A stretch of DNA of 38,454 nucleotides, taken from a virus. The translations under genes were made by a program, and so were the position numbers. Positions 34,108 through 37,394 of this stretch are shown here, in pieces. Below the pieces are notes generated by a model. That model saw nothing but the letters and a program-made list of their open reading frames with translations. It made no database searches and had not been told where the DNA came from. Position 1 is the first letter of the stretch. Each line of letters opens with the position of its first letter. The stretch spans positions 1 to 38,454 of IMG/VR virus record IMGVR_UViG_3300032236_001456, one strand, 5' to 3'.

Positions 34108-34138
34108 TTGTTTATTTAGATACTTATTATTATCTTTG
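34108..34138 (+). promoter_or_regulatory. Promoter for the tRNA region
   Basis: TTG 34108-34110 and TATCTTTG 34131-34138, spaced by 20 bases: an excellent Bacteroidetes-type promoter. It lies before a 30-codon ORF, a terminator and then the tRNA genes. Confidence 0.75.
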
Positions 34139-34325: not shown

Positions 34326-34401
34326 CTAGATGTAGAGGAGTCAGGCTTTTCTCGCTGCTTTTGGAAAGCAGAACACGTTGGTTCGAATCCAGCCATCTAG
34401 A
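34326..34401 (+). tRNA. tRNA-Pro(TGG)
   Basis: Full cloverleaf. Acceptor CTAGATG pairs with CATCTAG, anticodon loop TTTGGAA between CTGCT and AGCAG, T loop TTCGAAT. CCA is not encoded. Reads codon CCA. Confidence 0.9.
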
Positions 34402-34408
34402 CAACATA

Positions 34409-34479
34409 TCCGGTTTGGTGCAAAGGTAGCATATAAGTCTCCAAAACTTCAGATGTGGGTTCAATTCCTACAACCGGTG
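34409..34479 (+). tRNA. tRNA-Trp(CCA)
   Basis: Acceptor TCCGGTT with AACCGGT (first pair mismatched), anticodon loop CTCCAAA, T arm GTGGG TTCAATT CCTAC. The weak end pair is the only oddity. Confidence 0.8.
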
Positions 34480-34484
34480 CAAAG

Positions 34485-34555
34485 TGTCCTTTAGTATAGC
34501 GGTAGTACACGTGAATTTGGATCACGTAGCTGTGGTTCAAATCCATGAGGGACAA
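34485..34555 (+). tRNA. tRNA-Gln(TTG)
   Basis: Acceptor TGTCCTT with AGGGACA, anticodon loop ATTTGGA between CGTGA and TCACG, T loop TTCAAAT. Confidence 0.9.
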
Positions 34556-34561
34556 CAAAAA

Positions 34562-34630
34562 TGCGGGGAGGAGGGTTCCCGACCAGTCTCATAAGCTGTG
34601 TTTTTCCGGTTTCGACTACCGGCCCCGCAA
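34562..34630 (+). tRNA. tRNA with CAT anticodon (Met or Ile2), degenerate D arm
   Basis: Acceptor TGCGGGG with CCCCGCA, like bacterial initiator tRNA but with a paired 1-72. Loop CTCATAA. D arm is poorly formed and T stem has T-A at the usual G53-C61 position. Which CAT tRNA it is cannot be told. Confidence 0.7.
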
Positions 34631-34662
34631 CTAAAATATATAATATGAAAAAACAACATGAC

Positions 34663-34687
34663 ATGCATTAGGTAAACCTAATAGCAT
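34663..34687 (+). promoter_or_regulatory. Hairpin covering a start codon
   Basis: ATGC-ATTAGG pairs with CCTAAT-(A)-GCAT around a TAAA loop. The ATG at 34686-34688 is in the base of the stem, so translation of the 34686 ORF could be limited by the fold. Confidence 0.45.
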
Positions 34688-34880
34688 GAAAGCAAAGAGA
34701 AAAAATGGTAAAGTTGCCAAATCAACTACTCATAACAAAGAGTATAAAATTATCACAGCACCGGACAAATATGAAGGTGATTGGGATTATGGTTGGAATT
34801 TTCATCACGGAAATTTACCAAATCATAAATGGAGAGAATTTAGAACGTGGAAACACAGTAGAAAGTCTCAATGGAAGTAA
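34686..34880 (+). CDS. Small basic Trp-rich protein
   Basis: 64 residues lying between tRNA genes. The N-terminus is basic (MKAKRKNGKVAKSTTHNKEY); the rest is rich in Trp and His (DWDYGWNFHHGNLPNHKW, then REFRTWKHSRKSQWK). Not recognised. The charge suggests nucleic-acid binding. The start codon is inside a hairpin stem. Confidence 0.6.
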   Translation: MKAKRKNGKVAKSTTHNKEYKIITAPDKYEGDWDYGWNFHHGNLPNHKWREFRTWKHSRKSQWK

Positions 34881-34884
34881 ATAA

Positions 34885-34956
34885 GGTTTCTTGGTGTAAC
34901 GGATAGCACGAAACACTACGAATGTTTTAGTAAAGGTTCAAATCCTTTAGAAACCT
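34885..34956 (+). tRNA. tRNA-Arg(ACG)
   Basis: Acceptor GGTTTCT with AGAAACC, D stem GTGT/GCAC, anticodon loop CTACGAA between AAACA and TGTTT, T arm AAAGG TTCAAAT CCTTT. An ACG anticodon needs host A-to-I editing to read all CGN codons. Confidence 0.85.
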
Positions 34957-34958
34957 CT

Positions 34959-35010
34959 GTTCACTTTATACCCCTTGTTCACGGACAGTGTTCAAACCAA
35001 TAAAGTGAAC
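34959..35010. repeat. 11-bp inverted repeat left of HNH gene
   Basis: GTTCACTTTAT (34959-34969) and ATAAAGTGAAC (35000-35010). Further GTTCAC and TGAAC half-sites lie between it and the HNH ORF, and a related palindrome is found at 35530-35547. Confidence 0.75.
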
Positions 35011-35064
35011 GTTCATAACTTTTTTTAAATGAACAGATATTTATTATGAACAAATTATTATATT

Positions 35065-35508
35065 ATGATATGTACAAAGTGTAAAATAGATAAGTCAACT
35101 GAATCATTTAGAAAAAGAAAAGATACCACATCAGGATACCAATACTGGTGTAAAGATTGTGAAAGATTCGCCAACCAAAATCGTTACATCAAAAAGTCTA
35201 AACAACCAAAAAAAGAAATTGATAAAGATAAAATTAAATTAGAAGCATTAAAAAGAATGTTAAAATATAGATATAATTTATCTTATGAAGATTATATTGG
35301 TATGTATGAGAAACAAAACCAAAATTGCTCTGTTTGTGAAAAACATTTTCAACTTGGTGGATATAGAGGACTTTATGTTGATCATTGTCATACGACGGGT
35401 AAAGTTAGAGGATTACTTTGTTCATGTTGTAATAATGGAACATATATTTTTGAGAATGAAACATTAAGAAAACGAATGTTTTCTTATTTAGGTATTGATA
35501 ATCAATAA
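35065..35508 (+). CDS. HNH / endonuclease VII-like homing nuclease
   Basis: 147 residues. A zinc-finger-like N-terminus (CTKCKID and CKDCERF) is followed by LSYEDYIGMYEKQNQNCSVC, then YVDHCHTTGKVRGLLCSCCN, the recombination-endonuclease-VII (His-Me finger) signature with catalytic D-H-x-H and paired Cys for zinc. Such genes often act as homing endonucleases in phages. It sits alone between tRNA-Arg and a small basic ORF, flanked by GTTCAC/GTGAAC palindromes, which fits a mobile insertion into the tRNA region. Confidence 0.85.
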   Translation: MICTKCKIDKSTESFRKRKDTTSGYQYWCKDCERFANQNRYIKKSKQPKKEIDKDKIKLEALKRMLKYRYNLSYEDYIGMYEKQNQNCSVCEKHFQLGGYRGLYVDHCHTTGKVRGLLCSCCNNGTYIFENETLRKRMFSYLGIDNQ

Positions 35509-35529
35509 CCTTGCACATTTTTTATTTAA

Positions 35530-35564
35530 GTTCACGATTTCGTGAACAAACAAAAAAAGTGAAC
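35530..35564. repeat. Palindrome and half-site right of HNH gene
   Basis: GTTCACGA (35530-35537) pairs with TCGTGAAC (35540-35547); a further GTGAAC is at 35559-35564. It shares the GTTCAC core with the left repeat at 34959. Followed by A and T runs, so it could also be the HNH terminator. Confidence 0.7.
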
Positions 35565-35607
35565 AAAAAAAAGATCTAGAATATTTTTTTTAATAAAAAT
35601 ATTTGTA

Positions 35608-35615
35608 TATCTTTG
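35608..35615 (+). promoter_or_regulatory. Promoter -7 box before small basic ORF and tRNAs
   Basis: TATCTTTG, a perfect TAnnTTTG match, 21 bases before the ATG at 35637. No clear TTG at the -33 position, so it may be weak or activator dependent. Confidence 0.5.
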
Positions 35616-35636
35616 TAAAACAATAAACTTTTAACT

Positions 35637-35757
35637 ATGGCTAAAACGTCAAGAAGAGTTGCAAAAAAAAGCTAGTAAAGCTTTAAGAAGTAAAAGAACA
35701 AGTAAGACTACAAAAACCCTTGCTGGTTCAGCTTTAAGACAACGTAGAAGAAAGTAA
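35637..35757 (+). CDS. Small basic protein, frame broken at an A8 run
   Basis: From the ATG the frame stops after 12 codons (TAG at 35673). Skipping one A in the run 35663-35670 restores a frame ending at 35757. The joined product would be MAKTSRRVAKKASKALRSKR, then TSKTTKTLAGSALRQRRRK, 39 very basic residues. It resembles a widespread family of small Lys/Ser proteins ending in AGSAL-x-Q. Either slippage or frameshifting makes the protein, the gene is broken, or the run was misread. It ends 3 bases before a tRNA. Confidence 0.6.
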
Positions 35758-35760
35758 TAA

Positions 35761-35833
35761 GCCTGAGTAGCTCAGTTGGTAGAGCAGCAGTTTTGTAAAC
35801 TGCCTGTCGCTAGTTCGATTCTAGTCTTAGGCT
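35761..35833 (+). tRNA. tRNA-Thr(TGT)
   Basis: Acceptor GCCTGAG with CTTAGGC, D arm GCTC/GAGC, anticodon loop TTTGTAA between GCAGT and ACTGC, T loop TTCGATT. Confidence 0.95.
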
Positions 35834-35840
35834 CTTTGAG

Positions 35841-35907
35841 ACTAATCCAAACGAGGACTTTGTCAACCAGATCAGTGAATCGGAGGTGCAATTTAAGTTG
35901 GGTTAGT
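35841..35907 (+). ncRNA. Candidate structured RNA between tRNA-Thr and tRNA-Asn
   Basis: A 67-base element closed by an 8-bp stem (ACTAATCC with GGGTTAGT). Inside are small hairpins such as GAC-TTT-GTC, GAT...ATC and CAA...TTG. No T loop, so not a tRNA. Weaker than the 35994 element. Confidence 0.4.
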
Positions 35908-35916
35908 ATCAAACAC

Positions 35917-35988
35917 GCTTTCCTAGCTCAGAGGTAGAGCACATCACTGTTAATGATGGGGTCGGGATATCGTAATTCTCGGAGAGCG
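35917..35988 (+). tRNA. tRNA-Asn(GTT) with enlarged T loop
   Basis: Acceptor GCTTTCC with GGAGAGC, D arm GCTC/GAGC, anticodon loop CTGTTAA between CATCA and TGATG. The T arm CGGGA/TCTCG closes a 9-base loop (TATCGTAAT) rather than the usual 7. Confidence 0.8.
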
Positions 35989-35993
35989 CAACG

Positions 35994-36060
35994 TAATAAT
36001 CACTCCATAGAAATATGGTAAGCGTCCGGCAGTAACACCGGAATGGCAATGTGATTATTA
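35994..36060 (+). ncRNA. Candidate three-way-junction RNA in tRNA spacer
   Basis: 67 bases closed by a perfect 10-bp stem (35994-36003 with 36051-36060). Two hairpins inside: CCATA-GAAA-TATGG with a GNRA tetraloop (36005-36018) and TCCGG...CCGGA with an 8-base loop (36025-36042). No T arm or anticodon arm. The stability and GNRA loop point to a folded RNA rather than chance. Confidence 0.6.
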
Positions 36061-36082
36061 AGAGGTAAGGAAAAGACTAAAC

Positions 36083-36163
36083 GGCCTTGTGGTGGAACGG
36101 TAGACACGTTGGTCTTAGGAACCAATGTCGTAAGACGTGAGAGTTCGAATCTCTCTGAGGTCA
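36083..36163 (+). tRNA. tRNA-Leu(TAG)
   Basis: Class II. Acceptor GGCCTTG with TGAGGTC (three wobble pairs), anticodon loop CTTAGGA between TTGGT and ACCAA, long variable arm, T arm GAGAG TTCGAAT CTCTC. Confidence 0.9.
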
Positions 36164-36168
36164 CAAAA

Positions 36169-36250
36169 TGGGATGTAGTCTAGTGGCAATGACGGAGCAC
36201 TGTAAATGCTCTCTCCTTCGAGTTCGGCGGTTCGAGTCCGTCCATCCCAA
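36169..36250 (+). tRNA. tRNA-Tyr(GTA)
   Basis: Class II. Acceptor TGGGATG with CATCCCA, anticodon loop CTGTAAA between GAGCA and TGCTC, variable arm CTC...GAG, T arm GGCGG TTCGAGT CCGTC. Confidence 0.92.
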
Positions 36251-36255
36251 CAAAA

Positions 36256-36304
36256 GGACTTTAATGGTTTATGTACAAAACCGATGTAGGTTAGTCCCAC
36301 CTAC
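36256..36304 (+). ncRNA. Two hairpins between tRNA-Tyr and tRNA(CAT)
   Basis: GGTTT-ATGTACA-AAACC (36266-36282) and GTAGGT-TAGTCCC-ACCTAC (36286-36304), both with 7-base loops; GGACT/AGTCC offers an alternative pairing. It could be a decayed tRNA or a processing element. Confidence 0.4.
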
Positions 36305-36308
36305 AATT

Positions 36309-36383
36309 GGGAATGTAGCTCAGTTGGTTAGCAGCGGTGCTCTCATAAAGCAAAGGTCTTTGGTTCAAGTCCAAACTTTCCCA
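36309..36383 (+). tRNA. tRNA with CAT anticodon (Met or Ile2)
   Basis: Acceptor GGGAATG with CTTTCCC (one mismatch), anticodon loop CTCATAA between GTGCT and AGCAA, T arm TTTGG TTCAAGT CCAAA. Elongator Met versus Ile2 cannot be decided from sequence alone. Confidence 0.82.
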
Positions 36384-36386
36384 CAA

Positions 36387-36491
36387 AAAGATTATATGAA
36401 GGGGACGATACCAAACCCAAAGAAGTCTGACTAGATAGGCGTGGTTGTGAATGGTAAATTAGCAACTAACGGCAGAATGATTATAATCTTT
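36387..36491 (+). ncRNA. Candidate structured RNA, 10-bp closing stem
   Basis: 105 bases between tRNAs, closed by AAAGATTATA (36387-36396) and TATAATCTTT (36482-36491). Inside, GTTG...CAAC and AGT-CTG-ACT can pair. No tRNA features. Confidence 0.5.
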
Positions 36492-36494
36492 AAC

Positions 36495-36568
36495 GGAGCG
36501 GTAGTTCAGTTGGTTAGAATACTACACTGTCACTGTAGGGGTCGCGAGTTCGAGTCTCGTCCGTTCCG
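36495..36568 (+). tRNA. tRNA-Asp(GTC)
   Basis: Acceptor GGAGCGG with CCGTTCC (one G-T pair), anticodon loop CTGTCAC between CTACA and TGTAG, T arm GCGAG TTCGAGT CTCGT. Confidence 0.92.
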
Positions 36569-36581
36569 CTGATTTAGTTTG

Positions 36582-36681
36582 CCCGTGGTAACAGCTTAAT
36601 GGGGAAACCTTGTAAGCTTCTATGATCAAAATCCAATCAATGTCTCACTGTTGATTGGGCTAAATGTGAGGAAAAAACGGG
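36582..36681 (+). ncRNA. Candidate three-way-junction RNA before tRNA-Ser
   Basis: 100 bases closed by CCCGT/ACGGG. Two arms inside: AGCTTA...TAAGCT (36593-36618) and a perfect 8-bp hairpin CCAATCAA...TTGATTGG (36633-36658). Same general plan as the 35994 element. Confidence 0.55.
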
Positions 36682-36686
36682 AACAT

Positions 36687-36774
36687 GGAGAGATGGCAGA
36701 GTTGGTCGATTGCGTCAGACTTGAAATCTGAAGAACGGGTAACTGTTCCGTGGGTTCGAATCCTACTCTCTCCG
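36687..36774 (+). tRNA. tRNA-Ser(TGA)
   Basis: Class II. Acceptor GGAGAGA with TCTCTCC, anticodon loop CTTGAAA between TCAGA and TCTGA, variable arm AACGGGTAACTGTT, T arm GTGGG TTCGAAT CCTAC. Confidence 0.95.
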
Positions 36775-36811
36775 CACGGGTCTTAGCCCAGAGAGAAATC
36801 TAAAATACTAA

Positions 36812-36866
36812 GTGACTAATGGAAAGACATTATTTTTTCGCGAAATGACACCTCGGAAAGACGAGG
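36812..36866 (+). ncRNA. Hairpin pair with identical GAAAGA loops
   Basis: TAATG-GAAAGA-CATTA (36817-36832) and CCTCG-GAAAGA-CGAGG (36851-36866), with TTTCGCGAAA between. Identical hexaloops on different stems suggest a shared ligand or processing site. Spacer between tRNA-Ser and the next tRNA-like gene. Confidence 0.45.
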
Positions 36867-36871
36867 AACAT

Positions 36872-36940
36872 GGGACATAGCACGTAGTGCAGCTTGAGGT
36901 TCCTAGGCTCAAGAAGGTAAGGTCGAACCTTAGTGTCCCT
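36872..36940 (+). tRNA. Degenerate tRNA-like gene, possible Arg(CCT)
   Basis: Acceptor GGGACAT with GTGTCCC is good. The D arm is GCAC/GTGC with a 3-base loop, the T arm TAAGG/CCTTA has a 5-base loop (TCGAA), and the anticodon arm CTTGAG/CTCAAG encloses TTCCTAG. If read as a 7-base loop the anticodon is CCT. Arms are shortened as in some mitochondrial tRNAs, so function is uncertain. Confidence 0.5.
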
Positions 36941-36945
36941 CAAAT

Positions 36946-37121
36946 AATCAGGTGGCGGAATGGTTAGACGCTTATTTAAGGAAATAATTCTTCGAGAAAC
37001 GGCTCAGATATGAGTGGGTTTTATTAGGAACTTAAATGGACAGGAGGTAAGTAGCTTTGTACAAGCTAGTTGGTATGACAACCACTTCTCATACATACTG
37101 GTTCAAACCCAGTCCTGATTG
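36946..37121 (+). tRNA. tRNA-like gene with ~80-nt internal insertion
   Basis: Outer parts are clearly tRNA: acceptor AATCAGG with CCTGATT, a class II D arm (GGCGGAATGGTTAGACGC), T arm ACTGG TTCAAAC CCAGT, and a variable arm GTATGA/TCATAC. Between D arm and the hairpin TAGCT-TTGTACA-AGCTA lie about 80 extra bases (36972-37051) containing a 9-bp stem (TTATTTAAG with CTTAAATGG) that encloses two smaller hairpins. Without the insert it would be a class II tRNA with anticodon GTA, but another tRNA-Tyr already exists. No group I intron core or tmRNA tag is seen. Confidence 0.55.
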
Positions 37122-37135
37122 CAGGTCGTCATTTT

Positions 37136-37315
37136 TGTCCCCCTCAATCGGGACATTTGTTTAGACGTTAAATAAACAAATTAAAAGATAATTTGGGCGT
37201 ACTTAAAAGTTTCAGCGTAGTGAAAGTAAAGTCCCTTTTGGTGAATACCGTGTTTTGGACTTCCCTCTAAACACAACTATTAAGTAGGGACAATGAGTAA
37301 ACCTTAACTCGTCCC
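37136..37315 (+). ncRNA. Multi-hairpin RNA before tRNA-Glu
   Basis: The 199-base spacer folds as TGTCCC/GGGACA (37136-37155), ATTTGTTTA/TAAACAAAT (37155-37181), TTTCA/TGAAA (37210-37225), AAGTCC/GGACTT (37229-37262) enclosing GGT-GAAT-ACC, and GGGAC-AAT-GAGT...ACTC-GTCCC (37287-37315). No ORF. The first hairpin plus T-rich tail could act as a terminator. Confidence 0.5.
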
Positions 37316-37320
37316 GAAAA

Positions 37321-37392
37321 GCTCTTGTCGACTAATGGTTAGGTCACATCCCTTTCACGGATGTAATGCGGGTTCGATCCCCGTCGAGAGTA
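37321..37392 (+). tRNA. tRNA-Glu(TTC)
   Basis: Acceptor GCTCTTG with CGAGAGT (G-T end pair), D arm GACT/GGTC, anticodon loop CTTTCAC between CATCC and GGATG, T arm GCGGG TTCGATC CCCGT. Last tRNA seen in the window. Confidence 0.93.
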
Positions 37393-37394
37393 CA

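Follow-up and report, generated by a model that had tools for sequence, protein, structure and literature searches.

A probable non-decoding, tRNA-like phage RNA on a tRNA-Leu core with a structured insert

Is the locus at 36946-37121 of this phage DNA a tRNA with a new kind of insertion, a tRNA that is spliced, or a tRNA-like RNA with another job? The window, by which we mean the whole stretch of 38,454 nt analyzed here, is a 38-kb phage fragment that carries T4-like packaging genes, and the closest relatives of its large terminase are environmental viral contigs. A tRNA array called by ARAGORN and Rfam occupies 34326-37393 on the + strand, and the element lies in this array, flanked by tRNA-Ser and tRNA-Glu. 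The Bacteroidota -7 promoter element TATCTTTG occurs at 34131, before the array, and at 35608, within it, pointing to a Bacteroidota host of the phage.

The frame of the element is that of a class II, leucine-type tRNA and consists of the following parts.

36946-36952, + strand: acceptor stem, 5′ strand AATCAGG, with 7/7 pairs to 37114-37120
36953-36971, + strand: U8, G9 and the leucine-type D arm GGCGGAATGGTTAGACGC, with A14, A15 and G18G19; the D arm proper is 36954-36971
37096, + strand: U48, the Levitt partner of A15
37097-37113, + strand: T arm ACTGG-TTCAAAC-CCAGT, with 5/5 stem pairs
37114-37121, + strand: acceptor stem, 3′ strand CCTGATT (37114-37120), and discriminator G73; CA comes next

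Examined as a canonical decoding tRNA, the element has the 7-bp acceptor, the D arm, the T arm and the tertiary contacts, including that of U48, and it has no 5-bp anticodon stem with a 7-nt loop directly after the D arm. The D-arm/T-arm frame at the observed spacing has a single occurrence in the window and none in 100 shuffles. An initial annotation of this DNA had described the acceptor, D arm and T arm as good, and these results agree. D arm and T arm are separated by 125 nt, compared with 20-47 nt in normal tRNA-Leu. ARAGORN in its default run made no call at 36946-37121, and the Rfam tRNA model did not match there even at E<=10. The fold of the whole element taken alone is only mildly better than that of shuffles (z -1.3), so it is the tRNA frame, together with the relatives, that carries the case.

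The sequence between the two arms can be assigned the following structures.

36972-36980, + strand: helix a, 5′ strand, at the expected start of the anticodon stem; pairs with 37031-37039
36982-37025, + strand: domain I, a stem AAATAA/TTTATT around two hairpins, by eye
36988-36998, + strand: domain I hairpin TTCT-TCG-AGAA, from the sequence by eye
37003-37014, + strand: domain I hairpin CTCA-GATA-TGAG, from the sequence by eye
37009-37014, + strand: possible pseudoknot strand b, TATGAG, in the loop of helix a; pairs with 37088-37093
37031-37039, + strand: helix a, 3′ strand; pairs with 36972-36980
37044-37090, + strand: domain II, a bulged stem GAGgtAAGT/ACTTCTC around two hairpins, from the sequence by eye
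37052-37068, + strand: hairpin TAGCT-TTGTACA-AGCTA, from the sequence; probably not an anticodon arm
37088-37093, + strand: possible pseudoknot strand b′, CTCATA, separated from the T stem by 3 nt, a placement as in relatives

The structured insertion of about 80 nt that had been reported, with its 9-bp stem and inner hairpins, could be located, and helix a sits in the same place as helix a of the relatives described below. The minimum free energy fold agrees with domain I just in part. Strand b competes with the hairpin at 37003-37014, domain II and strand b′ are partly exclusive pairings, and the pseudoknot bases are thereby claimed by two alternative pairings. The topology a b a′ b′ is present in the window, but for this lone copy the pseudoknot is not significantly stronger than in shuffles (p = 0.27).

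The hairpin with the loop TTGTACA had been taken as the only canonical anticodon-like hairpin. It is present, but we do not take it as an anticodon arm, because a hairpin with a 5-bp stem, a 7-nt loop and T33 arises in 32% of dinucleotide shuffles of the insert, because its loop can close further via T32-A38 with C at position 37, and because the stem that ARAGORN builds from flanking bases when introns are allowed is mismatched. A variable arm of good quality, also claimed initially, is doubtful: 28 nt separate this hairpin from the T stem, and they hold one small hairpin, GTTG-GTATGA-CAAC.

No close homologue of the window copy was found in 35 related phage records, nor by searches with the insert motif, with the window D-arm variant plus T arm, or with the window acceptor plus D arm. 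Phage relatives near the phage of the window are without the tRNA-like element, and a search with the gene 3′ of it gave no relatives. Relatives that share the leucine frame are numerous, and their counts below are minimum values. A first pattern, consisting of the leucine D arm and the T arm at long spacing, matched many viral contigs; many of these matches proved to be adjacent pairs of ordinary tRNAs and were discarded, and single interrupted frames were kept. A tighter pattern with 60-90 nt between the arms, which made no demand on acceptor pairing, matched at least 120 viral contigs as opposed to just 11 places in 84,980 species genomes. Among the matches listed there were 107 distinct sequences, 89 of them with 7/7 acceptor pairs, and ARAGORN called none. 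The acceptors of the relatives are diverse (32 different among 88) and paired (600/616 pairs Watson-Crick). The commonest is AGTCAGG/CCTGACT, and the window acceptor AATCAGG/CCTGATT equals this family acceptor with one compensatory pair at position 2-71.

A wider finder, which required acceptor pairing, yielded 135 tRNA-like RNAs for comparison with 81 ARAGORN-called tRNA-Leu. The insert is 36-137 nt long in the former (mostly 55-90 or 105-137 nt) and 20-47 nt in the latter, the two sets being partly defined by length and by the ARAGORN call; comparisons of U48, of A73 and with shuffles are independent of both. U48, which was not fixed by the search, is present in 131/134 relatives and in 81/81 normal tRNA-Leu, in line with the A15-U48 pair, which requires U. 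The discriminator, likewise not fixed by the search, is A73 in 105/134 relatives (78%) and in 80/81 normal tRNA-Leu; the window copy has G73. A canonical anticodon arm was detected in 4/134 inserts, compared with 1.7 ± 1.3 in shuffles and with 55/81 normal tRNA-Leu. The leucine-frame RNAs keep an intact tRNA core, form a family and have lost the anticodon arm. The window element resembles them in its leucine D arm, T arm, paired acceptor, U48 and long insert without a canonical anticodon arm. Several relatives score above the Rfam tRNA cut-off, at 33-43 bits, which leaves a divergent decoding tRNA as a less likely reading.

The inserts are hypervariable, and most have no detectable relative among the 135. 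Where related groups exist, their helices covary. L276 and L360 share GGGATAA/TTATCCT together with GAAACTA/TAGTTTC, with four compensatory pairs; the helix GGTCTC/GAGACC of L283, L341 and L354 shows three, and the helix GGATTA/TAATCC of L157, L218 and L240 shows four. In these groups, the covarying or recurrent helices leave 0-9 nt free next to the D stem and 0-3 nt next to the T stem. We scored pseudoknots composed of a helix a near the D stem and a helix b whose first strand lies inside the loop of a and whose second strand, b′, lies at most 3 nt from the T stem. Over 105 inserts, pseudoknots were stronger than in shuffles (Wilcoxon p about 4e-10), and the commonest gap between the end of b′ and the T stem is exactly 2 nt. 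Two members have unusual architectures. L138 (6792-6575) has a second insertion in the D loop (GGCGGAAT...TTGGTAGACGC split by ~70 nt), and in L101 (8098-7915) the insert looks like a second, nested tRNA-like fold, which recalls the insert of a Lak tRNA-Thr.

We consider it unlikely that the locus is a real tRNA from which the insert is excised as a new small type of intron, leaving a tRNA with GUA or another anticodon. There is a precedent in the Lak megaphages of Prevotella, whose tRNAs contain "enigmatic introns," one of them in tRNA-Tyr(GTA) (PMC6784885), and with introns allowed ARAGORN models the window element as a tRNA-Leu(CAA) with an 81-nt intron. Moreover, the insert of L119 contains a canonical-looking UGA anticodon arm, and that of L211 a possible UAA arm with a 4-bp stem, by eye. 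However, the best exon join at the window gives a mismatched anticodon stem. In the related groups the space between D stem and T stem is filled with helices, so there is no exon room for a spliced anticodon arm, and anticodon arms are not enriched in the inserts. No intron family matched: group I and II introns, ribozymes, riboswitches and tmRNA of Rfam were unmatched at the window and at 17 loci with relatives, in keeping with the earlier statement that no group I or II intron core is visible.

The genomic context bears on a second alternative, namely that the tRNA-like fold is processing punctuation, which just lets RNase P and tRNase Z free neighboring messages or tRNAs. A tRNA lies within 300 nt of 42/135 relatives, always on the same strand, and 73/135 reside at loci without any tRNA. 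An ORF starts at most 50 nt downstream of 46/125 relatives, compared with 4/72 normal tRNA-Leu. The downstream ORFs listed look varied, which fits a cassette that is cut out of mRNAs and not a regulator of one gene. A Bacteroidota-type -7 element, TAnnTTTG, is found 10-30 nt upstream of 17/135 relatives. Punctuation would suit the many intra-operonic relatives, which begin a few nt past one gene and end 15-45 nt ahead of the next. Yet a plain tRNA would suffice for this purpose, the elaborate covarying inserts would be left unexplained, and copies in tRNA arrays, such as the four of L331, are not accounted for. We thus regard punctuation as improbable, more so than an intron. Multiple members with differing inserts also occur in L332, L157, L268, L290, L305 and L327, with two each. 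Among isolate phages, only Flavobacterium phage FL-1 (KY421186) clearly has a leucine-frame member, and a query with joined ends gave nothing but ordinary tRNA pieces among the matches listed; other named carriers are genomes of Riemerella, Christiangramia, Taibaiella, Bacteroides fluxus (insert masked), Nostoc and others. One 12-kb stretch of Lak-C1 has no leucine-frame member.

We regard it as very improbable that the tRNA frame harbors an RNA catalyst, self-cleaving or of another kind. P1 and P2 of the HDV ribozyme follow the same order a b a′ b′, and the insert measures 60-90 nt in many relatives; against this, HDV, hammerhead, twister and other ribozymes of Rfam had no match at the window or the 17 relative loci, no catalytic-core motif common to the groups is apparent by eye, and the inserts are too different for one common active site. 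Least probable of all is an accident: a tRNA in decay, debris of recombination, or two tRNA genes fused into a chimera during assembly. The location in a tRNA array and the lack of a close homologue of the window copy speak for this, but both the acceptor stem and the T stem are perfect, the core positions for tertiary contacts are intact, and the element belongs to a family in which acceptor changes are compensatory and 131/134 members have U48.

We therefore favor, with a probability of roughly 0.62, that the element is a non-decoding, tRNA-like phage RNA built on a class II tRNA-Leu core into which a fast-evolving working domain is inserted. Of the three options raised at the outset, it is this last one, a tRNA-like RNA with another job, that is best supported, because anticodon arms are not enriched in the inserts. 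The acceptor, D and T features of tRNA are read by RNase P, by 3′-end enzymes and by elongation factor Tu (EF-Tu), and leucyl-tRNA synthetase (LeuRS) can dispense with the anticodon in E. coli. Features read by processing enzymes, EF-Tu and LeuRS are kept and the part read by the ribosome is gone, which argues for a non-decoding tRNA-like RNA. The RNA that we propose retains the complete core, with G18G19 and the A15-U48 and U54-A58 pairs in addition to the acceptor stem and the D and T arms. In place of the anticodon and variable arms it has a structured domain that evolves fast; among relatives this is typically an H-type pseudoknot, order a b a′ b′, with b′ ending about 2 nt ahead of the T stem. 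The element would be transcribed in the tRNA array, and relatives presumably also inside operons or from their own promoter. RNase P and tRNA 3′-end enzymes could then excise the RNA, reading the acceptor/T half. The tRNA core would protect the RNA and may allow binding of LeuRS and EF-Tu, and the inserted domain would work in trans. Charging with leucine is plausible for copies with A73 and less plausible for the window copy, as its G73 discriminator argues against it. A function as tRNA mimic or decoy in the conflict between phage and host over tRNAs is the function that we tentatively prefer, though perhaps at well short of even odds.

It is about an even chance that these RNAs represent a widespread, undescribed phage RNA class, in which the whole tRNA-Leu core is kept and the anticodon and variable arms are traded for hypervariable, pseudoknotted effector domains acting in trans as mimics or decoys against host defense or translation. 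Judged from their sequences, the leucine-frame RNAs look like a class that cannot serve as ordinary tRNA. Like canonical tRNA-Leu, they have the acceptor, the D and T arms and U48, and in most cases A73; they differ from it by the missing anticodon arm and the longer insert between D and T arms. The tRNA-like domain of tmRNA likewise retains acceptor and T arm and has its anticodon arm replaced by a pseudoknotted extension. By contrast, the leucine-frame RNAs have a full D arm, an insert of 60-140 nt and no tag reading frame shown, and their 3-70 pair is not the alanine G-U; ARAGORN made no tmRNA call at the window, and Rfam tmRNA matched neither there nor at the 17 relative loci. Bacterial YrlA and Y RNAs are tRNA-mimicking, non-coding RNAs with a tRNA-like module, and are similar in this respect. 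The window is unmatched by YrlA, and where L322 and L282 gave weak YrlA matches, these fall on ordinary tRNAs called there and not on the tRNA-like element. The tRNA cluster of phage T4 contains the small stable RNAs C and D, whose job is unknown, and which are comparable, by description alone, as small stable RNAs inside a phage tRNA cluster. The Lak tRNAs belong to phages of a Bacteroidota host and have long, unexplained inserts of no known intron family, which were read as introns of decoding tRNAs, one of which has insert-free versions (Devoto et al. 2019, PMC6784885). The window element and its relatives differ in their leucine frame without an anticodon arm and in the covarying helices of the insert. 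A review of non-canonical tRNAs mentions neither phage nor pseudoknot (PMC7609411), and we found no description of such RNAs in the open literature, a scope that largely leaves out subscription papers and preprints.

Leucine-frame RNAs escape ARAGORN, and with Rfam they either escape as well or are labeled plain tRNA. Should they prove stable and non-decoding, phages would be using the tRNA body as a platform on which RNA domains evolve fast, and some of the "tRNA introns" of phages may be other things. Whether RNA mimics, besides extra tRNAs, serve phages in conflicts over tRNA biology becomes a testable question.

Related modules were seen outside the leucine frame. A recurrence of the L157/L159 module in Proteus phage Brookers has a different frame, with ends that form a longer stem, and was not counted as tRNA-like; the core of this Brookers leader RNA is homologous to the L157/L159 insert. 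L239 (1466-1668), L244, L245 and L247 are leader RNAs of Proteus, Enterobacter and Providencia phages, with a common closing stem and swapped cores. A small hairpin with a GGAAAGAC or GTGAAAGTC loop (CTCGGAAAGACGAG) lies just upstream of the members in L178, L248, L116, L121 and L255, and a hairpin of this type also occurs at 36850-36866 of the window.

The tRNA array of the window contains further unusual features. The ORF at 35065-35508 encodes zinc-finger-like cysteines and by eye resembles an HNH/endonuclease VII homing enzyme. A conserved small basic ORF (MAKTSRRVAKK...) at 35638-35757 is interrupted by an A8 run followed by TAG, which is either a frameshift site or a homopolymer error. 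The inter-tRNA stretch 36386-36492 has a 10-bp closing stem (z -2.9) and no relative was found for it; the stretch 37121-37320 is 82% conserved in L237. Directly upstream of the element, at 36872-36938, lies a cloverleaf-shaped RNA with GGGACA/TGTCCC ends, three arms and degenerate loops (a 3-nt D loop, a 5-nt T loop and a 9-nt anticodon-like loop). A structured RNA closed by CCCGT/ACGGG at 36580-36682 has 3 relatives with compensatory changes and takes a different place in the array order of other phages. At 34562-34633 lies a tRNA that ARAGORN does not call; its anticodon loop has CAT, its D arm is short and odd, and it has 3 relatives, 5 compensatory pairs and 0 broken pairs. The structured RNA between tRNA genes at 35838-35910 is conserved in 15 related sequences from phages, in which 4 of its pairs show compensatory changes, and a three-way-junction RNA with a CCGGCAGTAACACCGG hairpin at 35993-36064 (z -4.1) has 8 relatives and 5 compensatory pairs.
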